From positions 1,352,636 through 1,416,635 of the forward strand of contig NZ_RJJE01000017.1 in the NCBI RefSeq assembly GCF_003721565.1: a stretch of 64,000 nt of DNA, read 5' to 3'. Below are positions 981 through 61,142 of the stretch, piece by piece. Each line of letters opens with the position of its first letter. Within the stretch, counting starts at the first letter, position 1. The notes under the pieces were generated by a model. The model saw only the letters and a list, made by a program, of their open reading frames with translations, was not told the DNA's origin and did not search any database. Position numbers and translations under genes: made by a program. This DNA comes from Rufibacter immobilis (GTDB taxonomy: Bacteria > Bacteroidota > Bacteroidia > Cytophagales > Hymenobacteraceae).

Positions 981-1032
981 AAACTCCCGTTTAGGACCTG
1001 TTTTTGGAAAAACAGGTCCTAAACGGGAGTTT
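981..1032. repeat. Palindromic intergenic element, copy 1 (GGACCTG core variant)
   Basis: Perfect 52-bp inverted repeat with centre GG, lying between the convergent DUF6340 and DUF3109 genes. The core carries GGACCTG instead of GGGGCTG, and the opposite arm carries the matching CAGGTCC, so the two arms changed together. The outer arm AAACTCCC is unique to this copy. Confidence 0.9.
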
Positions 1033-1051
1033 GATTATCAAGAGGAGTATC

Positions 1052-1627
1052 TTATTTGACCAATGCTTCCTTAGCCACCAGCTCATCCAGTTCATTGAAC
1101 CATTCCTCGCCGAATTTCCGGATCAAAGGCTCGCGCAGGAACTTGTACACCGGCACGCCCAACTCCTGCCCGAAGGAACAGGCGGGGTTGCAGATTTCCC
1201 AGCGGTCGTAGTTCAGGGCCTCAAACCCGTCGTACTTCGTGATCCGGATGGGGTACAGATGGCAGGAAATGGGTTTCTTCCAGGAGATCTTACCATCCAG
1301 GTACGCCTGTTCAATGGCGCACTTGAGCGTGAGGTTATCGTCATAGATGGCGTAGGCGCACTCGCGGTCGCCAATGGTGGGCGTGCTATAGTCCCCTTCA
1401 AAGTCTTCTACGTAGAGACCTTGTTCCGTAACGGCTTTCACTCCCTCCGCAGACATGTAGGGTTTTACGTGCTCATAAACCTCGGCTAAGAGCGGGAGTT
1501 CTTCTTTGTCCAGAGGGGCGCCCAGGTCTCCTTCCACGCAGCAGGCCCCTTTGCATTTCTCTAGGTTACAGACAAAGAACTTGTCTTTGAGGTCGTCAGA
1601 GAGAACAGTATTTTGCAGTACAATCAT
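1052..1627 (-). CDS. DUF3109 family protein, Cys-rich (putative metal-binding)
   Basis: A 191-residue cytoplasmic protein of the DUF3109 family, common in Bacteroidota. Near the N-terminus it has [11 protein letters not shown], and further on C-x-L-Y-P and a CNPACSFG segment; the spaced cysteines resemble the YkgJ-type CxxC...CC arrangement of putative Fe-S or zinc proteins. Function is unknown. A TAnnTTTG -7 element lies 25 bp upstream of the ATG. It is convergent with the DUF6340 gene and divergent from the helicase gene. The family assignment is confident; metal binding is inference. Confidence 0.85.
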
Positions 1628-1651
1628 GAGCTAATTCTTTTAGCAGAAAGA

Positions 1652-1659
1652 CAAAAGTA
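1652..1659 (-). promoter_or_regulatory. Bacteroidota -7 element for the DUF3109 gene
   Basis: Reads TACTTTTG on the minus strand (consensus TAnnTTTG), about 25 bp before the ATG at 1627. No convincing -33 TTTG at 17-20 bp. Confidence 0.6.
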
Positions 1660-1714
1660 CCGCTATTTAAGTTCGGCCGCAAAGCCTTAGCGCAAAGTGT
1701 GCAAGACGGCAAAT

Positions 1715-1753
1715 GCGTTTAGCGGCTCTTTTTCTGAAAAAAGGCCCAAAACG
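1715..1753. repeat. Degenerate palindromic element
   Basis: GCGTTTAGCGGCTCTTTTT faces a decayed arm ending CCCAAAACGG. One of the few copies between divergent gene starts. Confidence 0.6.
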
Positions 1754-1912
1754 GCTGCTTCTTCCCTACCCCATCTATCACCCACCGTAAACGCGAGGCG
1801 AATGGCCCAGAACAAGAGCTTGGGTGCCTCCTCCTTTGGGCAGCGGAAGGATGGTCCAAGAAATGGAGCAGTGAATACCAAAGCTTCTGAGCAGAATGCG
1901 ACCTTTCTTTCG

Positions 1913-1920
1913 TAATTTTG
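1913..1920 (+). promoter_or_regulatory. -7 element for the PcrA-type helicase gene
   Basis: TAATTTTG matches TAnnTTTG and lies 33 bp before the ATG at 1954. It lies downstream of any longer start codon except the implausible one inside it, supporting 1954 as the start. Confidence 0.6.
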
Positions 1921-1953
1921 TGTTCCTTCTACAAGAAAGAACCTTTCGTACAC

Positions 1954-4244: not shown

Positions 4245-4294
4245 ATTTCGCGTTTAGGGGCTGTTTTTCCAAAAAGAGCCCCTAAACGCGAAAT
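4245..4294. repeat. Palindromic intergenic element, copy 2
   Basis: Near-perfect inverted repeat with arms ATTTCGCGTTTAGGGGCT... and centre CC, 54 bp after the helicase stop. It is bracketed by a longer imperfect inverted repeat (see 4192-4331). Confidence 0.9.
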
Positions 4295-6429: not shown

Positions 6430-6466
6430 GGTTTGGGTTAATTTCTGGAAAAACAGCCCCTAAACG
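6430..6466. repeat. Decayed palindromic element (right arm intact)
   Basis: The right arm GGAAAAACAGCCCCTAAACG is perfect. The left arm (GGTTTGGGTTAATTTC) is recognisable only by alignment. Confidence 0.65.
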
Positions 6467-6547: not shown

Positions 6548-7360
6548 ATGAGAACAAACTATCAGACTTTCCTTTTCGGCGGCTTATTGCTGCTTGTGTT
6601 CTTTTTCGGGGGCTGCTCGGGCAAACAGGAAACGCCTTCTGCCAATGAGGTAGCAGCCGTTGCTCAAGCCAGCGATGCCGCCGCTCCAGACGGTGCCAAC
6701 AATGAAGCTACTCCAGCAAAGCAGATGCTCATCAAAGACGCCCAAGTCAAGTTTCAGGTAAAAGATCTGGCAAACAGCACACAACGCATTGAGAACGCCG
6801 TGAAAAAGCATAATGCCATCCTGGCTAACACCTCGCAACAACAGGCGCAAGATGAGCAGGTCATGAACTTTGAGATACGGGTGAAGCCAGAGCAGTTTAC
6901 GACTCTACTGGAGGAACTGGAAAAAGAAAGCGTAAAGCTGGAGTACCGGAATCTGGCATCTGAAGACGTAGCGGTGGAATACGTAGACGTGCAGGCACGC
7001 CTGAAAGCAAAGAGAGCAGTAGAACAGCGGTACCTGTCACTCCTGAACCAAGCCAAAAACATCAATGAAATACTAGAGGTAGAGCAGTACTTGCTGAAGG
7101 TGCGGGAAGAGATAGAAAGCGCCGATGCCCGTTTGCACTACCTGAAAAACCAAACCGCCTACAGCACCATTAAACTGGAGATATACCAGCTGGTACCCTT
7201 GAGTTTTACGGAGCGCATTGGCTTAGGCACCAGATTCTACAACGCCTTTGGCACCGGGTGGCAGATGTTCCTTTCTCTATTAGTGGGCTTGTGTTACCTC
7301 TGGCCCCTGCTTTTGCTGGGCGGCGGGTTGTACCTGCTGCGCCGCCGCAGATTAATCTGA
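6548..7360 (+). CDS. DUF4349 domain lipoprotein
   Basis: A 270-residue membrane protein. The signal peptide ends in lipobox FGGC (about residue 23), followed by an Ala/Pro-rich linker. The central part (LIKDAQVKFQVKDL...IENAVKKHNAI...NFEIRVKPEQF...LEYRNLASEDVAVEYVD) matches DUF4349, with a coiled coil (AKRAVEQRYLSLLNQAKNINEILEVE) and a C-terminal membrane segment ending in RRRRLI. Function is unknown; such proteins are predicted envelope components. The stop codon lies inside the arm of the following palindromic element. Confidence 0.85.
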   Translation: MRTNYQTFLFGGLLLLVFFFGGCSGKQETPSANEVAAVAQASDAAAPDGANNEATPAKQMLIKDAQVKFQVKDLANSTQRIENAVKKHNAILANTSQQQAQDEQVMNFEIRVKPEQFTTLLEELEKESVKLEYRNLASEDVAVEYVDVQARLKAKRAVEQRYLSLLNQAKNINEILEVEQYLLKVREEIESADARLHYLKNQTAYSTIKLEIYQLVPLSFTERIGLGTRFYNAFGTGWQMFLSLLVGLCYLWPLLLLGGGLYLLRRRRLI

Positions 7361-7412
7361 CTTTCTGTTTAGGGGCTGTTTTTCCAAAAACAGCCCCTAA
7401 ACAGAAAGTCAG
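7357..7412. repeat. Palindromic intergenic element, copy 3 (overlaps a stop codon)
   Basis: A 56-bp palindrome, centre CC, unique outer arm CTGACTTTCT. It contains the TGA (7358-7360) of the DUF4349 gene and ends 14 bp from the convergent methyltransferase stop. Confidence 0.92.
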
Positions 7413-10130: not shown

Positions 10131-10137
10131 TATTCCA

Positions 10138-10172
10138 GTTTAGGCCTGTTTTTAGAAAAACGGCCGCTAAAC
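10138..10172. repeat. Degenerate palindromic element abutting a terminator
   Basis: GTTTAGGCCTGTTTTTAGAA with right arm CGGCCGCTAAAC, 8 bp after the sugar-transporter stop. Its last bases are also the first bases of the terminator hairpin that follows. Confidence 0.75.
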
Positions 10173-10211
10173 AGAAAGCCGCCCCTGTTGCAGGGGCGGC
10201 TTTCTGTTTTA
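10169..10211 (+). terminator. Strong intrinsic terminator after the sugar transporter
   Basis: AACAGAAAGCCGCCCCTG, loop TTG, CAGGGGCGGCTTTCTGTTTT: an 18-bp perfect stem with a T-rich right arm. Confidence 0.9.
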
Positions 10212-11308: not shown

Positions 11309-11318
11309 AGTGAGTTAA

Positions 11319-11370
11319 ACTCCATAGAAAAGGGGAACCGGCAATTACCGGTTCCCCTTTTCTATGGAGT
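11319..11370 (+). terminator. Long hairpin terminator after murB
   Basis: ACTCCATAGAAAAGGGGAACCGG and its complement around CAATTA form a 23-bp perfect stem 11 bp after the murB stop. It is symmetrical enough to work for mutS2 in the other direction. Confidence 0.85.
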
Positions 11371-11373
11371 TAC

Positions 11374-11409
11374 GTTTAGGGGCTATTTTTGGAAAAAGAG
11401 CCTCTAAAC
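11374..11409. repeat. Palindromic intergenic element, copy 4
   Basis: GTTTAGGGGCTATTTTTGGA with right arm GAGCCTCTAAAC; two mismatches between arms, 5 bp from the mutS2 stop. Confidence 0.85.
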
Positions 11410-14824: not shown

Positions 14825-14876
14825 AAAAAGAGGCAAAAAACGGGAGCCAGTTACGCTCCGTTTTTTGCCTCTTTTT
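14825..14876 (-). terminator. Terminator after the LysM gene
   Basis: A stem of GGCAAAAAACGGGAGC against GCTCCGTTTTTTGCC with one bulge and a 6-nt loop. Read on the minus strand it ends in a T-run. It fuses directly to the half element at 14871-14896. Confidence 0.8.
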
Positions 14877-14896
14877 GGAAAAACAGCCGCTAAACG
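14871..14896. repeat. Half palindromic element fused to a terminator
   Basis: Only the right arm is present (GGAAAAACAGCCGCTAAACG), starting 2 bp from the LysM stop and running into the terminator stem; the left arm appears to have been replaced by the terminator. Confidence 0.7.
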
Positions 14897-14897
14897 C

Positions 14898-15890
14898 TTA
14901 GGGCATGTAAGATACCTCCACCCTGAATCGTTTGTCAACGGCGCCAATTTGCTGGCAGGCCTTTTTGGAGAGCTTCACTAATACTTTATCGTTTTCACCG
15001 GTGGCGGGCAGTTTCCCAATCACGCGCACGTAAACGGTCTGGTCATTCATAGGGTTCTTTACCGCCATAATGGTTCCTACGGGAGCCGTTTTGTGCAGGG
15101 CCAGGAACTTGTTGGCGTCTGAGCGCTGCTCAATCTGTTCGGCCATGCCGCTTTCATTTACTCTTGAAACATATTCAGAGGTTTTGGAAGCGGGTTTATC
15201 ATCATCAGCTTCGGCTGTTTTGGCTGGCGCAGCCGGAGTAGCCGGTGCCGAAGCCACCGGAGCAGCGGCAGGGGCTGGTTTCTTAGCGGTGGTTACCACG
15301 TCATCAGATTCGGGCACATAGACCTTGGCGCTGGCCGCTGTCTGCGCCGGGGCTTTCGCGCCCACGCCTACAATGAGGTTCTGGCCCACTTTCACGGTAT
15401 TGGTAGGCAGCTTGTTCCAGCCCTTGATGTCCTCTACGGTTACTTCATGTTGCTTGGCAATGGAAAACAGCGTCTGGCGGGCCTGCACCTTGTGCATCTT
15501 ATTGCCTTTGGCATCTATCTCATAAGTGTGATTAGCCGCAGGACTGGCAGTTGCTGGAGCTGGGGTCGCGGCGGCCGGGGTAGCGGCTACGGTACTGCTG
15601 GAAGAGTTACCGGTGCTGGTACTGGCCGTTTTCATGGGAATCAGGACGGTTTGCCCTACCAACAGCGCTTTGTTCACGCTCTTGTTCGCCTCCACAATCT
15701 GGTTAACTGAAACGCCATACTTGCGCGACAAGGCATATAAAGTTTCGCCGGGGGTTACTTTGTGGGTGATAAAGGTTTTTCCGTTCTGCACTTTCACCCC
15801 GGTGGAGTCGCGGGGGAACAGGGTCTCAGCGGAGACGGTACCGTACGAAACCAAAAGGCAACCAAAAACAAATACAAACTTCTTCAACAT
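14898..15890 (-). CDS. Secreted LysM protein with RlpA-like C-terminus
   Basis: A 330-residue exported protein: signal peptide (residues 1-21, cleavage near VSA-ET), LysM 1 at about 41-86 (THKVTPGETLYALSRKYGVSV), LysM 2 at about 132-176 (HKVQARQTLFSIAKQHEVTV). A Pro/Ala/Lys linker follows, then a C-terminal domain (ANKFLALHKTAPVGTIMAVKNP...VYVRVIGKLP) resembling the RlpA double-psi barrel. LysM binds peptidoglycan glycan; RlpA-like domains bind or cleave denuded glycan. Whether this one is enzymatic is unknown. The linkers are Ala-rich low complexity. Confidence 0.85.
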   Translation of the reverse strand: MLKKFVFVFGCLLVSYGTVSAETLFPRDSTGVKVQNGKTFITHKVTPGETLYALSRKYGVSVNQIVEANKSVNKALLVGQTVLIPMKTASTSTGNSSSSTVAATPAAATPAPATASPAANHTYEIDAKGNKMHKVQARQTLFSIAKQHEVTVEDIKGWNKLPTNTVKVGQNLIVGVGAKAPAQTAASAKVYVPESDDVVTTAKKPAPAAAPVASAPATPAAPAKTAEADDDKPASKTSEYVSRVNESGMAEQIEQRSDANKFLALHKTAPVGTIMAVKNPMNDQTVYVRVIGKLPATGENDKVLVKLSKKACQQIGAVDKRFRVEVSYMP

Positions 15891-16207
15891 GAACTCAACT
15901 ACTTTAAATCAACTACAATAACGTAAGGCCTTTACAACTCTTATTCTAAAAGCTCCGTACTTCCTAAAAAAGTCTGCTTTTCAACAGGCCTGTCTTGTCA
16001 TGCCCCATCTGGGAGGGGATGTCTCTTACTGAACAGCCGCGAGGGTGTAAGTTACAAAAATTTCAGAAACCCACGGTCTGCTCCTTTTCCGCCTTACCCC
16101 AAGCCCAACAAGATAAATTTCGCGTTTAGCGGCCGTTTTTCCAGAATCAGCGCCAAACCAGATTCCCCTACCCCCATTAGTGTCTGCACTTCCCGGTGGG
16201 CGATGTC
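15891..16207. other. Intergenic region between LysM and topB
   Basis: A 317-bp gap with no credible gene. It holds one degenerate palindromic element (16124-16158) downstream of topB; the LysM promoter should lie near its right end but no clear TAnnTTTG is seen. Confidence 0.6.
16124..16158. repeat. Degenerate palindromic element downstream of topB
   Basis: GTTTAGCGGCCGTTTTTCC facing CAGCGCCAAAC; 50 bp after the topB stop. Confidence 0.6.
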
Positions 16208-18676
16208 TTAGTCAAATAGGTACACTACCTTATATTCTTCGTTCAGCTTAAGGGCCGCCTCAAAAGTATTGCCGGTTTTGGGCGAGGTAAACCCTTTGAT
16301 CTTGCCGGTTTTCCCTTTGAGCACCAAGGCTTTGATGTGGGTGTCTGAGAGCGTTTTCCCATGGATCTCAAACGGTACCGTAAACTGACAACCTTCCCGG
16401 AAGCGGCTACAGCCATAGGCCGTTTTGCCTTTGAGCATTTGCCCCTGGCTGCACTTGGGGCAGATCATGACCATCGGCTTTTGCTCTTTGGGCTCCGCCT
16501 TTTCCAGTTGAAGCGCATGGGTGGAGGATAAAGTAAACGCCGCGTCATACTTCTCGCCGGTGGCCTCATCCACAAATCCTTTCACCACCGGGCTTTTGCC
16601 CTTCTTTAGGAGCGACTGCACCTGTTTCTCCGTCAGGGGTTTTCCGCTGAACGTCATGGGCAGCCGGAACTGGCACCCTTCCCTAAAACGGGCGCAACCG
16701 TAGGCCTGGCTCCCCTTCAGGATGTGACCAGTGCCGCAGGCGGGGCAGTTCCCCAGACCAGCCGGAGCCGCCGGGGCGTTTAGGGGCTCTTTTTTCTTTT
16801 TTTCGCCTTTTCTGGCGGGCTCTTTCTCCGGTGCCTTGGCCGAAGCTTCTGCGGCGGGCTGCAAAGTAACGGTATGGTGGTCTTGCTTTACCTCCTGCAC
16901 CATCTCCCAGACCAGTTGTTTCAACTCATGCAGGAAATCATCGGCCTTGAACTCCCCTCCCTCAATCTGCCGCAGTTTTTTCTCCCACTGCCCGGTCATC
17001 TCGGCAGACTTGAGCGTAGGGTTCTTGATTACCTGGATCAGATCAATGCCCATTTGGGTGGGCAGGATTTTCTTCTTCTCCTTCCGGATGTAGTTGCGCT
17101 TGAACAAGGTTTCAATGATGGCCGCGCGGGTGGAAGGCCGGCCTATCCCGTTTTCCTTGAGCGCCTCCTTGAGTTCATCGTCCTCTACCTGCTTACCGGC
17201 AGTTTCCATGGAGCGCAGCAACGTTGCCTCGGTAAAATCTTTGGGCGGACTGGTGGATTTACGTTCCAGCAGCGGCTCATGCGGCCCCCGTTCCCCCGCC
17301 TCAAAGTGAGGCAGCACGGCCAGTTCTTCTTCCTTCTCCTCGCCCTCCGCGGTTGGTTTGGCCGCCGGTTTAGGGGTTGTGGTATTTTCTTCGGGTCCGT
17401 AGACCACGCGCCAGCCGGGCTCCAGAATTTGCTTCCCTTTCGCCCGGAACGCATGCTGTGCCGCCTCCCCGTTTACCACGGTGTTGCTCACAATACAATC
17501 TGGGTAGAAGGCCGCAATGAAACGTTTGGTCACAATGTCAAACACCTTGGCCTCCGTTCCGTAAAGGCTGCGGGCATCTGTGCCGGTGGGAATAATGGCG
17601 TGGTGGTCAGTTACTTTATTATTGTTGAACACCTTCGCCGATTTCCTGATTTTCTTGCCCAGCAGTTCCTGCGTGAGGTGCTGGTACTGGTGCAGGCCGC
17701 TTAAAATGCCGGGGATCTTGGGGTAAATATCATCGGGTAGGAAAGTGGTATCTACCCGGGGGTAACTGACTACCTTCTTCTCGTAGAGACTCTGCACGGT
17801 CTTCAACGTCTCATCTGCTGACAGACCGAACTTGTTGTTGCACTCCACCTGCAAAGAGGTAAGGTCAAAGAGACGCGGGGCACTCTCGGTGCCGCGTTTG
17901 GTTTCCACGTCCTTGATCTCAAACTCGGCGGGTTTGATCTGCTCCAGTACCGCCTGGGCTTTGGCTTCGTCTTTAAAGCGACCCGAGGTGCTGCTGAAGG
18001 TTACTTCCCGGTAAACCGTTTTCAGTTCCCAGAACGGTTCAGACTTAAAGTTGAGGATCTCCAGGTGCCGGTGCACAATCATGGCCAGGGTAGGCGTTTG
18101 CACCCGGCCCAAAGAGAGCAGTTGCCTTCCCTGGGCGTATTTCAAGGTAAACAGCCGGGTGGCATTAATTCCCAGCAACCAGTCCCCAATGGCACGGCTT
18201 TTACCGGCGTGGTAGAGCTGGTCAAACTCTTTTCCCTCCCGCAGTTGGGCAAATCCCTGCCGGATGGCTTCCTCCGTGAGCGAAGAAATCCAGAGGCGCT
18301 TAAAGGGTTTGCGGTACTTGGCCTGGTGCAAAACCCACCGCTGAATGACCTCGCCCTCCTGCCCCGCATCACCGCAGTTAATCACTTCCTCGGCGGTCTC
18401 CAGCAGCTTTTTAATCACGTTGAACTGCTGTTCTACCCCTTTGTTGCCAATGAGTTTAATGTCAAAGCGGTCTGGCACCAGCGGCAGGTCTGGCAGGTGC
18501 CACCGCTTCCAGTGGGGGTTATAGTCATCTGGTTCGCAGAGCTGGCAAAAGTGCCCGAAGGTCCAGGTAACCTGGTATCCGTTTCCCTCATAAAAGCCGT
18601 CGCGCTTGGTTTTGGCACCAAGGACTTGGGCAATTTCACGGGCTACACTTGGTTTTTCGGCGATGCAGAGTTTCAA
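16208..18676 (-). CDS. topB: DNA topoisomerase III-type (type IA)
   Basis: An 822-residue type IA topoisomerase that relaxes or decatenates DNA through a 5'-phosphotyrosine link. It has N-terminal TOPRIM (LCIAEKPSVAREIA; NCGDAGQEGEVIQRW), SLGRVQTPTLAM, and catalytic Tyr in VSYPRVDTTFLPDD. The C-terminus has two zinc-ribbon-like repeats (CPACGTGHILKGSQAYGC, CPKCSQGQMLKGKTAYGC). I assign a TTG start at 18676 because homology begins there (LKLCIAEKPS) and because a -7 element at 18712-18719 lies inside the longer frame to 18748. The linker before the zinc repeats carries a half copy of the intergenic palindrome. Confidence 0.93.
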   Translation of the reverse strand: MKLCIAEKPSVAREIAQVLGAKTKRDGFYEGNGYQVTWTFGHFCQLCEPDDYNPHWKRWHLPDLPLVPDRFDIKLIGNKGVEQQFNVIKKLLETAEEVINCGDAGQEGEVIQRWVLHQAKYRKPFKRLWISSLTEEAIRQGFAQLREGKEFDQLYHAGKSRAIGDWLLGINATRLFTLKYAQGRQLLSLGRVQTPTLAMIVHRHLEILNFKSEPFWELKTVYREVTFSSTSGRFKDEAKAQAVLEQIKPAEFEIKDVETKRGTESAPRLFDLTSLQVECNNKFGLSADETLKTVQSLYEKKVVSYPRVDTTFLPDDIYPKIPGILSGLHQYQHLTQELLGKKIRKSAKVFNNNKVTDHHAIIPTGTDARSLYGTEAKVFDIVTKRFIAAFYPDCIVSNTVVNGEAAQHAFRAKGKQILEPGWRVVYGPEENTTTPKPAAKPTAEGEEKEEELAVLPHFEAGERGPHEPLLERKSTSPPKDFTEATLLRSMETAGKQVEDDELKEALKENGIGRPSTRAAIIETLFKRNYIRKEKKKILPTQMGIDLIQVIKNPTLKSAEMTGQWEKKLRQIEGGEFKADDFLHELKQLVWEMVQEVKQDHHTVTLQPAAEASAKAPEKEPARKGEKKKKEPLNAPAAPAGLGNCPACGTGHILKGSQAYGCARFREGCQFRLPMTFSGKPLTEKQVQSLLKKGKSPVVKGFVDEATGEKYDAAFTLSSTHALQLEKAEPKEQKPMVMICPKCSQGQMLKGKTAYGCSRFREGCQFTVPFEIHGKTLSDTHIKALVLKGKTGKIKGFTSPKTGNTFEAALKLNEEYKVVYLFD
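16776..16796. repeat. Half palindromic element inside topB
   Basis: Left-arm sequence GCGTTTAGGGGCTCTTTTTT lies in the topB coding sequence, where it encodes the KKKEPLNAP stretch of a low-complexity linker. There is no right arm. The core 9-mer GTTTAGGGG recurs in the same gene at 17368. Confidence 0.6.
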
Positions 18677-18989
18677 GGCTATGTAAAGGAAAGCAGGTAA
18701 AAAACGAACCCCAAAGGTACGCAAAACCGAGGGCTTTGCCCAACGCAAACCTCGGCCGCCACATATATAACATTACCTATATTATAAAATTTCCTCACTG
18801 AAAAAGCGGTTTACTTTAGCAATTATTTATCAAACACTTATACTCCTTAATCGCTTTCTCAAGCCCAGAGGCGCTTCCACACATTTTAGTATTTCTACTT
18901 AACCATGCCAAAATGCCCCCGTATATAATAGCCGGTGCCTTTGGTGGCATCAGGAGAAACCATCATTCACCTTAAACTAAAAAACAACT
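18677..18989. other. Divergent intergenic region topB / low-complexity gene
   Basis: A 313-bp AT-rich gap holding the topB -7 element near its left end. No TAnnTTTG match is evident before the ATG at 18990. Nothing else is seen. Confidence 0.6.
18712..18719 (-). promoter_or_regulatory. -7 element for topB
   Basis: TACCTTTG on the minus strand, 36 bp before the TTG start. Its position rules out the more upstream ATG at 18748. Confidence 0.65.
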
Positions 18990-22854: not shown

Positions 22855-22889
22855 GTTTAGGCTTAATTACGGAAAAAGAGCCGCTAAAC
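22855..22889. repeat. Decayed palindromic element
   Basis: GTTTAGGCTTAATTACGGAA with right arm GAGCCGCTAAAC. Confidence 0.6.
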
Positions 22890-22989: not shown

Positions 22990-23039
22990 GAAGGGCGTTT
23001 AGGGGCTGTTTTTGGAAAAACAGCCCCTAAACGCCCTTC
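22990..23039. repeat. Palindromic intergenic element, copy 5
   Basis: A perfect 50-bp palindrome, centre GG, unique outer arm GAAGGGC, 26 bp after the histidine kinase stop. Confidence 0.95.
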
Positions 23040-25249: not shown

Positions 25250-25289
25250 GCGTTTAGGGGCTGTTTTTGGAAAAACAGCCCCTAAACGC
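25250..25289. repeat. Palindromic intergenic element, copy 6
   Basis: A perfect 40-bp palindrome, centre GG, with only GC as extra arm; 25 bp after the Bcr/CflA stop. It shows the bare core. Confidence 0.95.
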
Positions 25290-26663: not shown

Positions 26664-26700
26664 TGTTTTGGCCCTGTTTCTGGAAAAACGGCCGCTAAAC
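26664..26700. repeat. Degenerate palindromic element
   Basis: GTTTTGGCCCTGTTTCTGGA with right arm CGGCCGCTAAAC, between glgP and the exporter gene. Confidence 0.65.
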
Positions 26701-28715: not shown

Positions 28716-28751
28716 GTTTAGGGGCTCTTTTTGGAAAAACAGCCCCTAAAC
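28716..28751. repeat. Palindromic intergenic element, copy 7
   Basis: The bare 36-bp core with one arm mismatch (GGCTCTTTTT against AAAAACAGCC) and no outer extension. Confidence 0.9.
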
Positions 28752-28860: not shown

Positions 28861-28912
28861 GCATCGGCGTTTAGGGGCCGTTTTTGGAAAAACAGCCCCT
28901 AAACGCCGATGC
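28861..28912. repeat. Palindromic intergenic element, copy 8
   Basis: A 52-bp palindrome, centre GG, unique outer arm GCATCGGC, one internal wobble (GGCCG against CAGCC); 52 bp after the cupin-gene stop. Confidence 0.93.
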
Positions 28913-31526: not shown

Positions 31527-31538
31527 TGACCCATTTCT

Positions 31539-31574
31539 GTTTTAGCCCTTTTTTCAGAAAAAGAGCCCCTAAAC
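31539..31574. repeat. Degenerate palindromic element
   Basis: GTTTTAGCCCTTTTTTCAGA with right arm AGAGCCCCTAAAC, 13 bp after the cysM stop. Confidence 0.65.
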
Positions 31575-31614
31575 ACCCTGTCCACAAATCCTCACTCTTT
31601 TGATTAAGCGCTAC

Positions 31615-33523: not shown

Positions 33524-33581
33524 GCGGCGTTTGCGTTTAGGGGCTGTTTTTGGAAAAACAGCCCCTAAACGCAAACGCCGC
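33524..33581. repeat. Palindromic intergenic element, copy 9 (within a likely gene cluster)
   Basis: A perfect 58-bp palindrome, centre GG, unique outer arm GCGGCGTTTGC, 8 bp after the second YeeE stop and before tlpA on the same strand. Confidence 0.95.
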
Positions 33582-44348: not shown

Positions 44349-44384
44349 GTTTAGGGGCTGTTTTTAAAAAATAAACCCTAAAAC
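44349..44384. repeat. Degenerate palindromic element
   Basis: GTTTAGGGGCTGTTTTTAAA with right arm AAACCCTAAAAC; 18 bp after the GH125 stop. Confidence 0.7.
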
Positions 44385-48086: not shown

Positions 48087-48121
48087 GTTTAGGGGCTCTT
48101 TTTTCGAAAAACGGTCTAAAC
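48087..48121. repeat. Degenerate palindromic element
   Basis: GTTTAGGGGCTCTTTTTTCG with right arm ACGGTCTAAAC; 9 bp after the site-2 protease stop. Confidence 0.7.
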
Positions 48122-48319: not shown

Positions 48320-48381
48320 AAACGAGGATTCCGTTTAGGGGCTGTTTTTGGAAAAACAGCCCCTAAACGGAATCCTCGTTT
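48320..48381. repeat. Palindromic intergenic element, copy 10 (longest)
   Basis: A perfect 62-bp palindrome, centre GG, with the longest unique outer arm (AAACGAGGATTCC), 20 bp after the rhodanese stop. Confidence 0.96.
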
Positions 48382-48400: not shown

Positions 48401-48706
48401 CTAAGCCTCGTTATAGGCCAACATTCCGCCTAAGACATTGCGCACGTTGGTAAAGCCTTGCTGCTGCATGATGGCCTGGGCCGTGGCCGACCGTTTTCCG
48501 GAGCGGCAGTGTACCAGAATCTCCTGGTCTTTGTATTCCTCCAGCTCATGCAGGCGCTCGGGCAAAGAACCCAGCGGAATCAGTTTACTACCGGCAATGC
48601 TCTGCTCCTCATGTTCCCAAGGCTCACGTACATCCAGCAGGATGGGCGTTTCATTATTGGCCAAACGTTGTTTCAATTCAGCGGCGGTGATATCAGAAGT
48701 AATCAT
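48401..48706 (-). CDS. Rhodanese-domain protein (sulfurtransferase-like)
   Basis: A 101-residue single rhodanese domain with active-site Cys67 in VHCRSGKRS and LLDVREPWEHEEQSI. No signal peptide, so cytoplasmic. It carries sulfane sulfur as a persulfide, or acts as a general transferase. It overlaps the upstream T9SS-protein gene by 4 bp and is the last gene of the ddl-PASTA operon; why it sits there is unclear. Confidence 0.9.
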   Translation of the reverse strand: MITSDITAAELKQRLANNETPILLDVREPWEHEEQSIAGSKLIPLGSLPERLHELEEYKDQEILVHCRSGKRSATAQAIMQQQGFTNVRNVLGGMLAYNEA

Positions 48707-51334: not shown

Positions 51335-54034
51335 CTAAGAGATAACTTTTTTGGTGCGCTCCATGCCAAACTGCAGGATGCGGTCAATGAAATCATAGGG
51401 TTTGTAGCCGTTGATGGCGGTCTGGTGGAAGATACACGTGGCCGGCGTCATGCCCGGCAGCGAGTTCACTTCTATGATGATGGTCTCCACCTTTCCGTCC
51501 TGGTGCACGCGCACGAAGGCATCTATGCGGGCATATCCTTCAATGCGCAGAATCTCGGCTACCCGCTTTAAGTCCTGTTTCACCTGGTCTGAGATGCGCT
51601 GGCGCTCAGCTGGGTCTTTGGCGTAGCGGGCGGGCGTAATGTTCTGCCCTTCACCTGCCAAAAACTTTTCCTCCAGACTCAGCACTTCTCCTTCGGCCAA
51701 CGCTTCTGAGGCTTCAAATATTTCATACTGGGTGCGGCCGTCAGGGCCGTAGCCCGTGAGCAACCCTCCGGTAATCTCCAGGAAATGCTTCGCGCCTTCG
51801 GCTGAGATCAGGTTTTCTATCAGGAAATATCCCTTCAGCGGCACTTCTTCCTTGAAACTCAGCTTAAGCACGCGCGCCGGGGTTTCCGGTATCTCTATGG
51901 AATTCCGGAAAATCAGCTCCGCGAAAGCCTCCAGTTCCTCCCGGGTCTTAATCTTCTTCACCGCCGAAGAACAGCCGTCATCGGCAGGTTTGGCAATGAA
52001 CGGATACCCGAAACGCTCTTCAATCTGCGCAAAGAATGCCGCTTGGTTCTCCTGCCAGTCTTTCTTGAAGGCCAGCATGTGGTCGGCCACCGGAATCCCG
52101 TTCTGGCGCAGGATCTTGTTGGTCTCAAACTTGTTGATGGTCACCTGCGAGCTCTGAATACCAGACCCGTTGTACGGAATCTGGAATTTCTCCAGCTCGG
52201 TCTGCAGCACGCCATCTTCGCCGGGTCTGCCATGCAGGGCAATGAACACCGCATCCACTAAACTGCGCAGCTGCTCATACGTCAGGCACTGTGGCTTCTG
52301 CAAGGAATTACCGGCGTACAGGCTGGTAATGCCCTTGGCTTCTTCCTTAATCTGCGCCAGCACGGGGTGCGTAGGCACGCCCGCTTCCGAGGCCTCAATC
52401 TTCTCCTTGATGTCATCGGCATTGTCCTTCAACATGATGTTGATAGGAATCTGGTAGAGCTGGTGCGTCTCGTCGTTGCCGGTCAGGAAGATGGGAATGG
52501 GTTCGTATTTGGTAGACGAGGAAAGTTTCTCGTAGATGTTGCGGCCGCTTTCCACGGAGATATGGCGCTCAGACGAGTAACCGCCCATGATCACGCCCAC
52601 CCGCAGTTTATCGTGGCGGTGCGCGCGCTCATCGGCCATGGCCGTTTCCAGTTTTCTCAGCAACCCTATTAAATAGGATGTGTTCTTTCCAGATTTCACC
52701 CGCTCGGCCAGAGACGTTCTAATGATATAGGTCAGGAACTGCGACGGATTCAAGCCAATTTCGGCGGCCTGGTGGAAGAAGAACGACGAAGGCAGCATGC
52801 CGCTGGTGGTGTTGGGGTCGTTCAGGAAAATCTGTCCGTCCTGAGTAATGAAACCGTCCAGACGGGCGTACACGTTGAAGCCCAGACTGGTGTAGAGACG
52901 TTCGCACTCCTGCCGGATCTGCTGAATCTGCTCCGTAGGCAGGTCAATGGGCGTAATTTTGCGGCTCAGGCCGGGCAGGTATTTAGAACGGTAGTCAAAA
53001 ACCTCTCCCCCTTTTCTGATTTCTGTGGGCGGCAGCGCAATGGGTTGCCCCTGCTGGTCCTGCACCACAATGCAGGAGAACTCGCGCCCGTTGATGAAGG
53101 CCTCAATGAGCACCTGCGTCTCGCTCTCCACGTTGGTGAGGGTGAGCGTTTCGGGGCCGTTTTCCGTAAAAGTGGCCGAAAGTAGCGCCAGCAGTTCCTC
53201 GGGCGCATAAATCAGTTTCCCGTCCTGGGTTTGTACCGGCAAGCCGATGCCCTCCCTAATGTCGGTGAGGGTTTTGATGAAGTTCAGTTGCTGCGCCGCG
53301 CTTTTCCCGTTCCACTCGCTTTTCTGGATGGTGAGCGAGAACAGGCTGCGCGCCACGGCTTCCTCAAACAGCTGTACATTCTTCTCTTTGATGATAGACA
53401 CGCCAATGGAAGAGCCCTGGTGCGGCGCCTTGAGCACGAGCGGCAAGCCCAAATCAGCCACCAAACCCTCTAACAAAGCGGCCTTGTCCTTGGTAGCGTG
53501 CCAGTCCTGTAAGTTCAGGATGCGGTAATCTGGCGTGGCGAAACCGTGCTGCTGCAATAACGCTTTCTGCGCGATCTTGTCAATCCCGATGGCCGAAGGC
53601 AAAATACCCGAGCCGGAATACGGAATGCCGTACCACTCCAGCAAGCCCTGGATGCTGCCGTCTTCGCCGTACGGCCCGTGCAGGGTCAGGAACGCGAAAT
53701 CAAACAGCTGCTTGAACTGGTGCGGGTAAATGCGTTTGCCCACTTTGGCGGCAATCTGGTCCAGTTCCTCCTCGGTCAGTTTGCCAAGGGACTCCAGGTA
53801 CATCTGCAGGCCGTGCTCCGTGGTGGGCAGCACGTCTACCGGCGGATAAAAATCGCGGATGGTTCCTTTGTAGATGTAGTGCCAGTCTAGCAGGATAAAA
53901 TTCCCCAGGCTGTCGGCAAAAACAGGTACGGCCTCAAACAGAGACTTATCTAAATTATCGAAGACGGTGCGGCCGCCGGCGAAAGAGATTTCGCGCTCCC
54001 GGGACGGCCCCCCAAAGATGATTCCAATTTTCAT
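51335..54034 (-). CDS. ddl: Tandem (double-length) D-alanine--D-alanine ligase
   Basis: An 899-residue protein of two consecutive Ddl-like ATP-grasp units, about twice the usual 310-370 residues. Unit 1 (residues 1 to about 470) has GIIFGGPSREREISFAGG, HGPYGEDGSIQGLLEWYGIPYSGSG, KAPHQGSSIG and NDPNTTSGM. Unit 2 (about 485-899) has VIMGGYSSERHISVESG, HGRPGEDGVLQTELEKFQIPYNGSG and the canonical IIIEVNSLPGMTPATC, but its KPADDGCSSAV loop and central domain differ. The metal-site Glu-x-Asn is Asp-x-Asn in unit 1. Ddl joins two D-Ala for the peptidoglycan stem. A -7 element ends 6 bp before the ATG, so the transcript may be leaderless. First gene of an operon with PASTA, T9SS and rhodanese genes. 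Confidence 0.85.
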   Translation of the reverse strand: MKIGIIFGGPSREREISFAGGRTVFDNLDKSLFEAVPVFADSLGNFILLDWHYIYKGTIRDFYPPVDVLPTTEHGLQMYLESLGKLTEEELDQIAAKVGKRIYPHQFKQLFDFAFLTLHGPYGEDGSIQGLLEWYGIPYSGSGILPSAIGIDKIAQKALLQQHGFATPDYRILNLQDWHATKDKAALLEGLVADLGLPLVLKAPHQGSSIGVSIIKEKNVQLFEEAVARSLFSLTIQKSEWNGKSAAQQLNFIKTLTDIREGIGLPVQTQDGKLIYAPEELLALLSATFTENGPETLTLTNVESETQVLIEAFINGREFSCIVVQDQQGQPIALPPTEIRKGGEVFDYRSKYLPGLSRKITPIDLPTEQIQQIRQECERLYTSLGFNVYARLDGFITQDGQIFLNDPNTTSGMLPSSFFFHQAAEIGLNPSQFLTYIIRTSLAERVKSGKNTSYLIGLLRKLETAMADERAHRHDKLRVGVIMGGYSSERHISVESGRNIYEKLSSSTKYEPIPIFLTGNDETHQLYQIPINIMLKDNADDIKEKIEASEAGVPTHPVLAQIKEEAKGITSLYAGNSLQKPQCLTYEQLRSLVDAVFIALHGRPGEDGVLQTELEKFQIPYNGSGIQSSQVTINKFETNKILRQNGIPVADHMLAFKKDWQENQAAFFAQIEERFGYPFIAKPADDGCSSAVKKIKTREELEAFAELIFRNSIEIPETPARVLKLSFKEEVPLKGYFLIENLISAEGAKHFLEITGGLLTGYGPDGRTQYEIFEASEALAEGEVLSLEEKFLAGEGQNITPARYAKDPAERQRISDQVKQDLKRVAEILRIEGYARIDAFVRVHQDGKVETIIIEVNSLPGMTPATCIFHQTAINGYKPYDFIDRILQFGMERTKKVIS

Positions 54035-54144: not shown

Positions 54145-54181
54145 GCGTTTAGCGGCTCTTTTTCCAAAAAAAGGCCCAAAC
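54145..54181. repeat. Degenerate palindromic element
   Basis: GCGTTTAGCGGCTCTTTTTC with right arm AAGGCCCAAAC; outer GCGGG/CCCCGC also nearly pairs. Confidence 0.6.
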
Positions 54182-54295
54182 TAGCCCCGCCCCGTTAAAA
54201 CCTGGAAAGCAATGCGGCAAATTTGGCCTAAGCCTTTCCTCCCTGCTGCTGAACCAGTTCCAGAGTAAAACCCTGATGGATATCTTGGTGGGTAC

Positions 54296-54343
54296 GCTGG
54301 CGTTTAGGGGCTCTTTTTCTAAAAACAGCCCCTAAACGCCAGC
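54296..54343. repeat. Palindromic intergenic element, copy 11
   Basis: A 48-bp palindrome, centre CT, unique outer arm GCTGGC, one mismatch (CTCTTTTT against AAAAACAG). Confidence 0.92.
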
Positions 54344-57806: not shown

Positions 57807-57854
57807 TTTTCTGTTTAGGGGCCGTTTTTCCAAAATTGGCCCTAAAACAGAAAA
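57807..57854. repeat. Palindromic intergenic element, copy 12 (imperfect), joined to a terminator
   Basis: TTTTCTGTTTAGGGGCC with right arm GGCCCTAAAACAGAAAA; two single-base offsets. Its outer T-run on the minus strand forms the U-tract of the hairpin at 57855-57871. Confidence 0.8.
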
Positions 57855-57871
57855 CCCGGCCAAGGGCCGGG
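57855..57871 (-). terminator. GC hairpin terminator for the ERF-like gene
   Basis: CCCGGCC-AAG-GGCCGGG, with the palindromic element supplying a T-rich tail on the minus strand; 32 bp after the stop. Confidence 0.75.
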
Positions 57872-57902
57872 CTTCTGTACATTCAATCTATTTTGATACG
57901 TA

Positions 57903-58724
57903 TTACGCAGCGGCAGATTGCTCGTGCTCGCGGTCTTCAATCACTTTCTTCAGCTTCTGGATAGACTGCTTGGCGCGTTCTTCGTCCAGTTTGTTGATGT
58001 TGAGGAGCATCTTGGTTTTCTCCTGCCGGGTAATCACCGGGTTGTTCAGCAGACGGATGATTTCCTCTTTCTGCTTGGCTGTGGCATACTTCACCACAGT
58101 TTCCTCGGCCACCGGGGCAACAGGAGTAGCTACAGCCGGAGCTGCTTCGGCGGCAGGTTCTGCCGGAACGGCTTTCATGGTTTTAGCGGCGGCTGGCTTA
58201 GCGGCTTGTTCCACCTTCGGCTCCGTCACGTTGCCTTGGTAATCCATTTCCTCAGCGGGAGTTGGCTCATATCCGGCCGCCCTGATGATCCAGGCCAAGG
58301 CGTTGCGGTACGCTTTCCCGATGGCTCTGGTCTGGGCCATAGAGGCAATGGCGTATTCCTGGTAATATTTCCGGCCCTGCTCCTTGTTAGAACAGATGGC
58401 AAAACCAGCGCCCACAATTTGCTCAGAACGCAGGTTCAACAGATTTACCTTCGCCAGATATTTGATCTCTGTGGAGTCGCTCATGTTGGTGAGTTCGTCT
58501 ACCACCGGCAGAATACCCAAACGCGAACCAGCGTACTGCCAGCCTTCTACGTTCACATATTCTTTGCCCTGTATATTCTGGAAAAGTCTGTTCTCTTTGA
58601 TGAACTTGGCTAAGTCAACGGCCAAGTGCATCGTCTCATCTGAACGAGAGATATCAAAGCTCTCGATTTTATGCTTCTTCAGCACTTTCTCCTCGTTGTT
58701 TGCTTGATTCATTTTCGTCTGCAT
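57903..58724 (-). CDS. Putative ERF-like ssDNA-annealing/recombination protein
   Basis: A 273-residue cytoplasmic protein with no firm database family that I can name. The core (VEGWQYAGSRLGILPVV... YAIASMAQTRAIGKAYRNALAWIIRAAGYEPTPAEEMD) resembles phage ERF/RAD52-like annealing proteins, which carry SMAQTRA...AL and AGYEATPAEEM. After a Pro/Ala/Lys linker, a C-terminal TAKQKEEIIRLLNNPVITRQEK helix is like the small domain attached to phage RecT/ERF proteins. No other phage genes are near, so it is either a domesticated phage gene or an unknown recombination helper; recQ is 190 bp away. ATG 58724 has an AAAGGA just before it; 58712 is possible. Confidence 0.5.
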   Translation of the reverse strand: MQTKMNQANNEEKVLKKHKIESFDISRSDETMHLAVDLAKFIKENRLFQNIQGKEYVNVEGWQYAGSRLGILPVVDELTNMSDSTEIKYLAKVNLLNLRSEQIVGAGFAICSNKEQGRKYYQEYAIASMAQTRAIGKAYRNALAWIIRAAGYEPTPAEEMDYQGNVTEPKVEQAAKPAAAKTMKAVPAEPAAEAAPAVATPVAPVAEETVVKYATAKQKEEIIRLLNNPVITRQEKTKMLLNINKLDEERAKQSIQKLKKVIEDREHEQSAAA

Positions 58725-59228
58725 TTCCTTTAGTTTCAGTTCAGATTCATAACAGGCCAAGTAGCGTAAAAGTGCCACCAACGCAGATTTTATACTAATA
58801 TTATACTCCTGTAAATCAGTAAGTTACATACTATTGCTAAAATATTTTTAGCAAACACATAAACCCTTGATTAGTAAACGAATAACCTGACTATTCCCAC
58901 CAAAGAAATCGTTCCTAAACAAACCAAACCGAAAGTGGCTGCTCAATAACAGTATTGCGTTTTGAGGCTGTTTTTCTAAAAACAGCCTCAAAACGCAAGC
59001 CTAGCTTTTAAGCCTTCCGCTTGCAGTACTGCTTCAGTTTTGCCCAATCTGCCCCAGTTCTCCCCCACTCCCCCTCCACAAGTTGGGGAAAAATTCCACA
59101 GTTTTCCGGCGGCGTGGCTTAGAGCGAAAGCTCATAAATCACTATATACCAATACATTAAACAAAGCATGCATTTTCTGGCACGGCGCTGGCTAATAGGA
59201 AGACAGTCAACCAATAAAACATACTACT
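58725..59228. other. Divergent intergenic region ERF-like / PepSY-like
   Basis: A 504-bp gap with one palindromic element (58955-58998). No convincing TAnnTTTG or gene was found. Confidence 0.6.
58955..58998. repeat. Palindromic intergenic element, copy 13 (GAGGCTG variant)
   Basis: A perfect 44-bp palindrome with core TTTTGAGGCTG, centre CT; the opposite arm carries matching CAGCCTCAAAA. It lies between divergent genes. Confidence 0.92.
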
Positions 59229-59567
59229 ATGAAGAAAGTTATCTTATCAGCCTTCGGATTTATTTTATTTGCCGCCGTTTCTACCAACGCTCAGACGCAG
59301 ACCACACAAGGACAGACCCAAGCTGCCCCGGCAACCCAAACTCCGGCCACGGCTGCACAAGAAACCAAGACTTCAGTGAAAGTTGAAGAACTTCCTGCCG
59401 CAGTAAAAACTGCCCTTACCGCAGATTCTGGCCTCAAAGAGTGGACTCCAGTAGCCGCCACTTTGGTGAAAGATGCTGCTGGCAAGGAATACTATAGCAT
59501 TGAAATGAAAAAAGGCGAAGAGAAAGGCGCCATCAAATTAGACAAAGACGGCAACCAGGTGAAATAA
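59229..59567 (+). CDS. Small secreted PepSY-like protein
   Basis: A 112-residue periplasmic protein: signal peptide ending near TNA-QTQ (residue 21), a Gln/Thr/Ala-rich linker, and one PepSY-like (BLIP-fold) domain (VEELPAAVKTALTADSGLKEWTPVAATLVKDAAGKEYYSIEMKKG...IKLDKDGNQVK). Function is unknown; such domains often inhibit proteases or act as sensors. It has its own terminator and lies next to the NtrC-type regulator gene. Confidence 0.82.
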   Translation: MKKVILSAFGFILFAAVSTNAQTQTTQGQTQAAPATQTPATAAQETKTSVKVEELPAAVKTALTADSGLKEWTPVAATLVKDAAGKEYYSIEMKKGEEKGAIKLDKDGNQVK

Positions 59568-59611
59568 CCTTTCCCCTTTGGCTAACCAAGCCCGTACACA
59601 ATGAAACTATG

Positions 59612-59649
59612 AAATAAAGAAAGCCGGGTTTTCCCGGCTTTCTTTATTT
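59612..59649 (+). terminator. Intrinsic terminator after the PepSY-like gene
   Basis: AAATAAAGAAAGCCGGG, short loop, CCCGGCTTTCTTTATTT. Confidence 0.9.
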
Positions 59650-59652
59650 TTG
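59645..59652 (+). promoter_or_regulatory. Possible -7 element for the NtrC-type gene
   Basis: TATTTTTG, formed by the right arm of the terminator, 23 bp before the ATG; may be coincidental. Confidence 0.35.
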
Positions 59653-59674
59653 CCTTCTCAGGACAAACAGCAGC

Positions 59675-61003
59675 ATGGCGCGGATACTACTGGTAGAAGA
59701 TGATCTCACTTTTTCCTTGATACTGGAAAACTTCCTCAAGAAGCAGGGCTATCTGGTAGAAGTGGCGCATCGGGTAAAAGACGGCCTCAAGTTGGTCAAG
59801 TCGAATTCCTTCCAACTGCTGCTGCTGGATTACCGCCTGCCAGACGGCACCGGTCTTGAGCTTCTCCAGGCCTGCCAAGCCGAAGATACCCCGCCCCCCG
59901 TGATCATGATGACCAGTTTTCAGGATGTGGGCACTGCCGTACGGGCCATGCGCCTGGGCGCCTTTGACTACATCACCAAACCCGTGAACCCAGACGAACT
60001 GCTCATGGTGGTACAGGAAGCGCTGCAGGAGAAGGTAAAGCCAGAGGCAACTACTTCCCCCAAAGCCGCCGCCTTTATTACCGGCAACAGCCCCATTGCC
60101 CAGCAACTGCACGACATGATCACCTTAGTGGCCCCCACCGACATGTCTGTTTTGGTGCAGGGCGAAAGCGGAACCGGGAAAGAATACGTGGCTCGCACCA
60201 TCCATGAACACAGCAAACGTGCCCAGGCGCCTTTCATCGCCATTGACTGCGGCGCTATTTCGGGGGAGATTGCCAACAGCGAGTTGTTTGGCCACCTGAA
60301 AGGCGCTTTCACCGGGGCCATGCAAGACAAGAAAGGATTGTTTGAGGCGGCGCAGGGCGGAACGCTTTTCCTGGACGAAGTGGGTAACCTGAGCTACGAA
60401 ATCCAGATGAAGCTGCTGCGGGCCTTGCAGGAACGGGTAGTGCAGCCGCTGGGCTCCACCGCCTCCATTCCGGTGGACGTGCGCGTGATCGCCGCCACCA
60501 ACGATGACCTGATTAACAGCGTGAAAAACGGCGACTTCCGGGAAGACCTCTACCACCGCCTCAACGAGTTCAAACTACAGGCGCCCGCCCTGCGAACCCG
60601 CGGCCAGGACCTTTTCCTATTCGTGGACCATTTTATCAGTCAAGCCAACGCCGAGCTGGACCGCCACGTGCAAAGCCTCTCGCCAGAGGTACGGGAAATC
60701 TTCCGGAACTACGGTTGGCCGGGCAATCTGCGGGAATTGAAGAACGTGGTGAAACGGGCCGTGCTGCTCACCCCCACCGAGGAAATCCAGAAACAGGCAC
60801 TGCCCGAGGAAATGTACCAATTGGCCACCACCCCGCGCCCAGAAGGCCCCGACCTGAAAGCGATGCAGGAAGCCAACGAGCGCGAACTCATCCTGAAAAC
60901 CCTGCAAGAGGTCCGCTACAACAAATCAAAAGCGGCCCGCCTGCTCAACATTGACCGCAAAACCCTCTACCTCAAGCTACAGAAATACAACCTGTTGGAG
61001 TAA
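59675..61003 (+). CDS. NtrC-family sigma-54-dependent response regulator
   Basis: A 442-residue regulator: receiver domain with Asp52 (LLLLDYRLPDG), AAA+ ATPase with Walker A GESGTGKE, sigma-54 contact loop GAFTGA, Walker B GTLFLDEVG, and a C-terminal Fis-type helix-turn-helix (NKSKAARLLNIDRKTLYLKLQKY). It activates sigma-54 promoters after phosphorylation. The convergent hybrid kinase is the likely partner, and the PepSY-like gene is a candidate neighbour in the same response; partner choice is inference. Confidence 0.93.
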   Translation: MARILLVEDDLTFSLILENFLKKQGYLVEVAHRVKDGLKLVKSNSFQLLLLDYRLPDGTGLELLQACQAEDTPPPVIMMTSFQDVGTAVRAMRLGAFDYITKPVNPDELLMVVQEALQEKVKPEATTSPKAAAFITGNSPIAQQLHDMITLVAPTDMSVLVQGESGTGKEYVARTIHEHSKRAQAPFIAIDCGAISGEIANSELFGHLKGAFTGAMQDKKGLFEAAQGGTLFLDEVGNLSYEIQMKLLRALQERVVQPLGSTASIPVDVRVIAATNDDLINSVKNGDFREDLYHRLNEFKLQAPALRTRGQDLFLFVDHFISQANAELDRHVQSLSPEVREIFRNYGWPGNLRELKNVVKRAVLLTPTEEIQKQALPEEMYQLATTPRPEGPDLKAMQEANERELILKTLQEVRYNKSKAARLLNIDRKTLYLKLQKYNLLE

Positions 61004-61018
61004 CAGAAGCCAGGTTTG

Positions 61019-61056
61019 CGTTTAGAGCCTGTTTTTTGAAAAACAGGCCCTAAACG
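61019..61056. repeat. Palindromic intergenic element, copy 14
   Basis: CGTTTAGAGCCTGTTTTTTG with right arm AAAAACAGGCCCTAAACG; one mismatch, 15 bp after the NtrC-type stop. Confidence 0.85.
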
Positions 61057-61100
61057 AATAATCTGCCCATGCCCTACTCAAGGGGAACCGCTTAGACCAA

Positions 61101-61142
61101 GTTGCCGGATTTGCCCTGATTCCGGAAAAATGGCCGCTAAAC
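61101..61142. repeat. Decayed palindromic element
   Basis: The right arm CCGGAAAAATGGCCGCTAAAC is clear; the left arm is barely visible. 8 bp from the hybrid kinase stop. Confidence 0.55.

Follow-up and report, generated by a model that had tools for sequence, protein, structure and literature searches.

Behind many protein-coding genes of Rufibacter immobilis lies a 36-nt palindrome that behaves as a strand-symmetric, sequence-specific DNA site and that has been kept in place over the divergence of its genus. The element was found in a window of 64,000 nt (the whole stretch analysed) from contig NZ_RJJE01000017.1, belonging to a genome of 4.77 Mb in 17 contigs that is labelled G000 here, and its degenerate genus form consists of the half-site GTTTNNGSSCTGTTTT, four free positions (NNNN) and the complement. 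We tentatively favour the explanation that it is a genus-specific palindromic site by which the 3' ends of protein-coding genes are marked in the DNA itself. A selfish repeat, a stem-loop in RNA and a DNA uptake signal are weighed against this explanation below.

Abundance, position and inheritance of the palindrome

Genome-wide, G000 contains 715 copies at three mismatches or fewer, against none for the control, a number far from chance. When 200 genomes of the family were scanned at this stringency, 12 matched, comprising G000 and 11 of its 15 genus relatives (6–101 copies each), and this form was absent at up to three mismatches from all 184 other family genomes; an exact scan of named genomes gave matches in Rufibacter sp. 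XAAS-G3-1, R. sediminis, R. latericius and Sabulibacter ruber. Relatives within the genus have the same architecture in different letters. The degenerate form was also sought across the order (291 genomes, 115 genera), where at up to two mismatches four genus genomes contained 810, 708, 398 and 22 copies and the remaining 287 genomes contained none; at up to three mismatches it was present in 16/16 genus genomes (39–1803 copies; controls 0). The proposal made from the sequence alone that the element is lineage-specific therefore stands. Five other genera of the family, sampled over 289 kb, yielded 26 palindromes of other kinds, many of which look by eye like ordinary terminator-like hairpins. 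Within the one genus, strict copy number spans 39 (G048), 67 (G006) and 1803 (G060); the low count in G048 is due to its dialect, as a looser search finds 36 copies in 100 kb, and G006 is sparse under the looser search as well (4 in 40 kb). No title among the best-matching papers listed in the literature searched, whose coverage leaves out most subscription journals, names the element, and the two listed papers that combine Rufibacter with palindromes concern other organisms.

Copies are concentrated at the ends of genes, as judged from 464 kb of G000 in which genes were called with a simple hexamer script and 193 copies were located at up to ten mismatches. These fall into tandem (119), convergent (42) and divergent (21) gaps, with seven in coding sequence and four at the ends of stretches, which corresponds to 4.7 copies per kb of convergent, 2.5 of tandem and 1.2 of divergent gap. 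Counted by gap, 39/55 convergent, 102/205 tandem and 20/56 divergent gaps are occupied, while tandem gaps shorter than 50 nt almost never are (1/38). The 75 best copies include only five in divergent gaps, and 43 of the 46 best tandem copies are closer to the upstream stop than to the downstream start, at a median of 28 nt past the stop. Placement at 3' ends recurs in G012, G022, G017, G048 and G042. The other ten relatives were sampled at 20–40 kb each, which is too thin for single judgement, and in some of these tandem copies closer to the stop are rare (1/5 in G037, 0/2 in G027).

Positions are inherited even where letters are not. Of 519 reciprocal orthologue pairs, 264 have a gap of 80 nt or longer on either side, and in these the two sides agree on whether the element is present more often than expected (odds ratio 2.5, p 7.5e-4). 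At 112 orthologous pairs with a copy on both sides, the distance from the stop codon agrees to within 5 nt in 38%, against 17% when shuffled, and flank identity is 0.336 against 0.293; the core letters at these same sites differ at 11.3 of 36 positions, no closer than random copies (11.0). The pattern is sharper between G017 and G022 (13 pairs), with stop distances agreeing in 69% against 14%, flanks at 0.40 against 0.30 and cores at 8.8 against 8.8. Pairs involving G000 (47) agree in stop distance in 45% against 26%, and the other 52 pairs show no significant effect on distance (p 0.15). The closest species pair found, G042 and G051 (87.7% identity in a 2-kb gene region, median protein identity 94.7%), offers 85 syntenic gaps of 60–700 nt, of which 39 are empty in both species, 37 have equal copy number and nine differ, so that copy number agrees in 37 of the 46 occupied gaps.

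Within these shared copies, divergence is uneven in a way that points to sequence rather than to stem strength. In the half-sites, divergence at positions T2, T3, T4, T14 and T15 is 39/902 = 0.043, compared with 0.099 for T/A inside TTTT/AAAA elsewhere in the same gaps (p 2.5e-6, a value that is too small because both species of the pair were counted) and with 0.173 for all other positions of the gaps. This count covers 101 instances, omitting those with more than six gapped columns and entering each shared site from both species; a count without double entries, on 28 ungapped copies, agrees, with T positions at 0.00–0.09. GC-rich stem positions diverge at 0.207 and are unconstrained, so stem strength is not what selection keeps there. 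As the fixed T, C and G letters were weighted equally in the search pattern, the difference between T and GC positions is no artefact of the search. What is kept is therefore a sequence whose T steps are spaced by about one turn of the helix. The free positions 5, 6, 17 and 18 diverge at 0.317, nearly double the rate of the intergenic DNA around them, as though mutation were locally raised in the hairpin, and a larger share of the differences is adjacent inside elements (0.45) than in the flanking DNA (0.31). Over 46 copies the number of differences per copy follows a Poisson-like spread (mean 6.02, variance 6.47); between G042 and G051 there is no sign of wholesale replacement of one copy by another, with neither overdispersion nor clustering to the left or right half, while in G000 or G012 such a process may occur.

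Copies in the window, their arms and dialects

The 17-nt half-core has 42 matches in the window at three mismatches or fewer, against a mean of 0.29 and a maximum of 2 in shuffles. A listing of full palindromes at up to 12 mismatches of 34 returned 30 candidates, from which 14 good intergenic copies (up to four mismatches) and 12 decayed ones (6–12) were retained; four candidates with 11–12 mismatches were dropped, three in coding sequence and one in a gap. The weakest copy retained (61107–61142) has 12 mismatches, with one half still good. The by-eye tally of the sequence-only reading, with 14 good copies, 12 decayed ones and one half copy in topB, was thus matched by the mismatch scan, and its description of the copies as dispersed rather than tandem also agrees with the spacing, about one per 2.4 kb with no regularly spaced array. 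The same dispersal excludes a CRISPR (clustered regularly interspaced short palindromic repeat) array. A known Rfam family was rejected likewise, as a scan of the window at gathering score left the element unmatched and returned a tRNA as sole match. The copies are as follows, strand being given for the half copy only.

981–1032: copy 1, good; core 989–1024, 8-nt arms; convergent gap
1716–1753: copy 2, asymmetric and decayed; core 1717–1752; divergent gap
4245–4294: copy 3, good; core 4252–4287, 7-nt arms; tandem gap, stop 60 nt before
6430–6465: copy 4, asymmetric, right half good
7357–7412: copy 5, exact core 7367–7402, 10-nt arms; stop codon of 6548–7360 (+) within the left arm; convergent gap
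10137–10172: copy 6, asymmetric; adjoins an inverted repeat at 10169–10209
11374–11409: copy 7, good; convergent gap; inverted repeat 11318–11371 alongside
14859–14896: copy 8, asymmetric; stop of 14898–15890 (-) 2 nt before
16124–16159: copy 9, asymmetric; topoisomerase gene upstream
16778–16794 (+): half copy, one mismatch; isolated, within the topoisomerase gene
22855–22889: copy 10, decayed, right half good
22990–23039: copy 11, exact core 22997–23032, 7-nt arms; stop 32 nt before
25250–25289: copy 12, exact core, 2-nt arms; stop 26 nt before
26665–26700: copy 13, asymmetric
28716–28751: copy 14, good; no paired arms
28861–28912: copy 15, good; 8-nt arms
31538–31575: copy 16, asymmetric; stop 12 nt before
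33524–33581: copy 17, exact core, 11-nt arms; stop 18 nt before; predicted RNA fold -52.6 kcal/mol
44349–44383: copy 18, good; stop 18 nt before
48087–48121: copy 19, decayed; convergent gap, stop 8 nt before
48320–48381: copy 20, exact core, 13-nt arms; convergent gap; stop of 48401–48706 (-) 32 nt before the core
54147–54182: copy 21, asymmetric; divergent gap
54296–54343: copy 22, good, 6-nt arms; divergent gap
57813–57847: copy 23, decayed; by eye, a second hairpin-like stretch immediately after
58955–58998: copy 24, good, 4-nt arms, still paired because both halves carry the same changes; divergent gap
61019–61056: copy 25, good; convergent gap, stop 16 nt before
61106–61143: copy 26, decayed, right half alone good; stop 7 nt before

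The half copy lies inside 16208–18748 (-), a bacterial topoisomerase gene (PF01131, E 1.8e-116), and is near-perfect and isolated; lone half-sites are few, with 8/195 outside palindromes, five of those in genes. Some elements adjoin a terminator-like hairpin with which they have a GTTT/AAAC edge in common (window 10137–10209 and 57807–57870; 1244–1310 of locus L233), and one such element lies in viral contig IMGVR_UViG_2839759663_000002, the only contig of the viral collection that exactly matches the degenerate pattern. Elsewhere in the window, 51335–54034 (-) encodes an 899-aa protein with two D-Ala-D-Ala ligase N-terminal and four C-terminal stretches, apparently a fused tandem ligase.

The centre dinucleotides listed by the sequence-only reading (GG, CC, CT, TG) do occur, but the list was incomplete, as AG, CA, GA, CG and TC are found too. 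Its copy-specific arms were borne out: in the window 0–13 nt past the core pair perfectly, and across 189 copies in the 464 kb of G000 pairing exceeds a shuffled-partner null to about 9–12 nt, read from the profile with no per-position test. Pairing reaches about 5–9 nt in G012, G022, G017 and G048, and shows no excess over this null in G042. Perfect extensions run up to 19 nt, and extensions of at least 10 nt are found in 11/49 G000 copies with at most one mismatch and in 8/140 others. The half-site consensus begins with GTTT in all 16 sampled genomes, ten of them represented by 4–14 copies only, while the letter sets beyond this differ by species, so forming dialects. In 56/189 G000 copies the halves are mixed, one resembling the G000 dialect GTTTAGGGGCTG and its partner lying closer to the form general in the genus, GTTTTNGGCCT; the better half has no orientation bias relative to transcription. 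Covariation between left and right halves surpasses all 500 shuffles in G012, G017 and G048, and does not in G000, G022 or G042. Paired arms and half-matching copies show that a second process shapes the sites in some lineages.

Candidate explanations

The proposed DNA site would be read by a putative symmetrical (dimeric or tetrameric) DNA-binding factor contacting the T steps T2–T4 and T14–T15; bound at a gene end, such a factor might block read-through by RNA polymerase from either side, hold the supercoils that collide between convergent genes, or both. In some lineages the sites became near-perfect palindromes with paired, copy-specific arms, and these arms would arise secondarily, when a strand folds back in replication and one flank is copied onto the other. 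Such fold-back template switching would explain perfect arms, as drift in the specificity of the factor would explain dialects, but a slow copying process like that of repetitive extragenic palindromic (REP) elements may be at work. Both the binding factor and its boundary role are proposals drawn from the sequences. A bolder version holds that a factor unique to the genus operates a protein-dependent, bidirectional boundary system behind hundreds to more than 1000 genes, that it has replaced intrinsic terminators at about half of the mRNA ends with room for one, and that its specificity drifts, each species rewriting its sites in its own dialect; this we regard as doubtful.

Whether the palindrome works as RNA bears directly on this choice, since a hairpin acting as RNA should, when read in the sense of transcription, show G:U in preference to A:C mismatches. 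All tandem copies near a stop give 226 G:U against 198 A:C (p 0.19), and well-paired copies in lineages rich in perfect copies, lineages that were picked after copy numbers had been seen, give 141 against 114 (p 0.10). As positive control, 243 classical terminators of the same genomes that do not overlap elements give 130 against 50 (p 2e-9), and the two ratios differ (p 4e-4). As a class, elements are followed by no U-tract: the T fraction in the 5 nt past the core is 0.12 in G000 and 0.14 in G012, and its maximum within 40 nt is 0.33 and 0.39 respectively. Eleven tRNA and transfer-messenger RNA (tmRNA) genes scanned in four species, some mutually orthologous, are all followed, by eye, by a classical terminator; the 100 nt behind each gene are free of elements, one gene having an element 105 nt on. 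In convergent gaps of 80–120 nt a separate classical terminator stands at 17/68 ends with an element and 24/28 without (p 4e-8), and in gaps of 120–180 nt at 18/48 and 22/30 (p 0.003), both p values being too small because both ends of each gap were counted. In five other genera, 17/40 convergent and 17/79 tandem ends were positive in the same terminator test. The suggestion in the sequence-only reading that the element is terminator-like therefore holds for its placement, but there is no U-tract as a class, no element within 100 nt behind the tRNA and tmRNA genes and no G:U signature, with a minority of copies passing the terminator test by themselves.

Mobility was approached through the genes of REP-associated tyrosine transposases (RAYTs), the transposase searches covering the Y1 and RAYT families, and through target-site duplication. 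G000 has a RAYT-type gene that scores 98.7 bits with NCBIfam REP_Tyr_transpos (cut-off 80). It lies between a dnaE-like gene and a thioredoxin gene, both named from reading translations, and an exact copy of the element is some 0.8 kb away. RAYT homologues occur in 70/100 family genomes, 55 of them outside the genus, where the element is lacking (55/84), and G017 has 719 copies yet no RAYT above the family cut-off. The genus has 24 RAYT loci, representing 20 different genes and with distances that are rough, the open frame being mis-set in several; of these, L200 alone is bracketed by elements, at distances of up to about 125 nt. Nine loci inspected in sequence, partly by eye, all have other inverted repeats, four on both sides, and these repeats differ between genes (L207, L208, L197, L199, L205), as in TTCCGGATTT/AATCCGGAA, GGCGCGGAAGT/ACTTCCGTGCC and GTGCGTAGAG/CTCTACGCAC. 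With L200 excepted, mobilisation by RAYTs was rejected in view of the homologues in element-free genera, of G017 and of the other repeats that flank the RAYT genes inspected. At mirrored offsets around 127 copies, duplications of 5, 6, 7 and 8 nt number 0, 1, 0 and 0 (shuffled means 2.5 for 5-mers and 0.6 for 6-mers), on which a miniature inverted-repeat transposable element (MITE) with target duplication was rejected. Direct repeats of 4 nt number 16/127 against a mean of 9.2, within the range of 200 shuffles (largest 17); the absence of target-site repeats noted earlier thus holds for 5-mers and 6-mers, and less cleanly for 4-mers.

A REP-like selfish palindrome, spread by a putative trans-acting enzyme and tolerated behind stop codons because no promoter is harmed there, its dialects being successive waves of amplification and its arms made at insertion or by later fold-back repair, is unlikely on balance. 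It would account for 715 near-identical copies in G000 where 15 relatives have 0–101 of that form, for the mixed halves, for orthologous cores no closer than random ones, for free positions that outpace intergenic DNA, for L200 and for the slight excess of 4-nt repeats. It sits poorly with the other inspected RAYT loci, which lack elements close on both sides and, where inspected in sequence, have different repeats, with RAYT homologues common in element-free genera, with the lack of 5–8-nt duplications, with a majority of copies common to G042 and G051, with constrained T positions and with per-copy differences that bear no trace of wholesale replacement. The earlier label REP/MITE-like is accordingly apt for density and 3'-end placement and doubtful for mechanism, in view of those same repeats, the lack of clear target-site duplication, vertical inheritance and constraint. 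It is rather unlikely, in our estimate, that the element acts as an RNA stem-loop at the 3' ends of messages and, when transcribed from one side or the other, folds into a very stable hairpin that terminates or shields the mRNA, possibly once Rho has acted and the 3' end has been trimmed. Position after stop codons, paired arms, stable predicted folds of four copies (-32 to -53 kcal/mol, z -8 to -11), the minority that pass the terminator test alone, the fewer separate terminators beside elements in short convergent gaps and the classical terminators of stable RNAs would all fit; the missing U-tract, a G:U excess that is not significant where terminators test positive, stem constraint on AT and not GC, and one-sided changes outnumbering paired double changes by 106 to 3 in 28 copies of G042 and G051 do not. 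A DNA uptake signal, spread by biased transformation and divided into dialects, is very improbable. Uptake signals are mostly single copies and lie within genes too, whereas half-sites here are rare outside palindromes. What recommends it is a 12-letter half-site with hundreds of copies and dialects by species, as for the DNA uptake sequence (DUS) of Neisseriaceae (PMC3630211).

The DNA site that we favour has difficulties of its own. Its factor and its function are predictions from sequence analysis, and the constraint on T positions is known from one species pair and from copies of the degenerate kind; in that pair, identity over the element as a whole (0.822) is no better than in the two flanks (0.810 and 0.802). 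Paired arms and left-right covariation require a folded strand, which a plain protein site does not. Two small comparisons lean in the direction expected for RNA, namely the arms alone (16 G:U against 7 A:C, p 0.09) and one small cell of the test on well-paired copies (8 against 1, p 0.04), and 14/95 tandem and 12/57 convergent element ends in G000 themselves pass the terminator test. Elements that pass this test by themselves were moreover scored as having no separate terminator, and the exclusion is absent in gaps longer than 180 nt and in tandem gaps (57/268 against 51/250), so crowding may explain part of it. The double counting and the choice of lineages noted above weigh in the same sense.

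Known systems and significance

REP elements of E. coli also prefer the 3' ends of genes and shun divergent gaps. The palindrome resembles REPs, also known as palindromic units (PU), and their composites, bacterial interspersed mosaic elements (BIME) and REP doublets forming hairpins (REPINs), in being a short, high-copy intergenic palindrome (715 in 4.77 Mb; 7/193 in coding sequence). It differs in that both ends are symmetrical, with no GTAG/GTGG or CGTC tag at one end, in that the RAYT genes of this genus usually stand beside other repeats rather than beside it, and in its vertically conserved sites, constrained T positions and variable, pairing arms. For REP elements, roles in termination, mRNA stability and supercoiling have been proposed (PMC3733652). 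In PMC6006769, subclass 2.6 of the Bacteroidetes tnpA-REP genes is described with 'atypical secondary structures' beside RAYT genes; the phylum is the same, the structures are genome-dispersed and the G000 RAYT has the NHLH and YIHQNP motifs by which that subclass is described, while the structures beside the RAYT genes of this genus mostly differ in sequence from the element. These other repeats may be the atypical structures of that account. Like an intrinsic terminator, the element can form a stem-loop behind stop codons, and some copies end T-rich and pass the test; unlike one, it has its T run at the centre and not after the stem, a conserved core sequence, no G:U signature, and no place behind the tRNA and tmRNA genes examined. 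With the uptake sequences of Neisseriaceae and Pasteurellaceae it shares a short motif repeated genus-wide in species dialects, and it differs in occurring as palindromic pairs with few single copies.

It is unusual that hundreds of dispersed palindromes stay at fixed sites between species while the set as a whole is respelled from one species to the next. Two readings suggest themselves, a global factor acting at gene ends and co-evolving with its sites, or a selfish repeat of long standing that the host constrains, and the system bears on how bacterial transcription may end by means beyond intrinsic and Rho termination.

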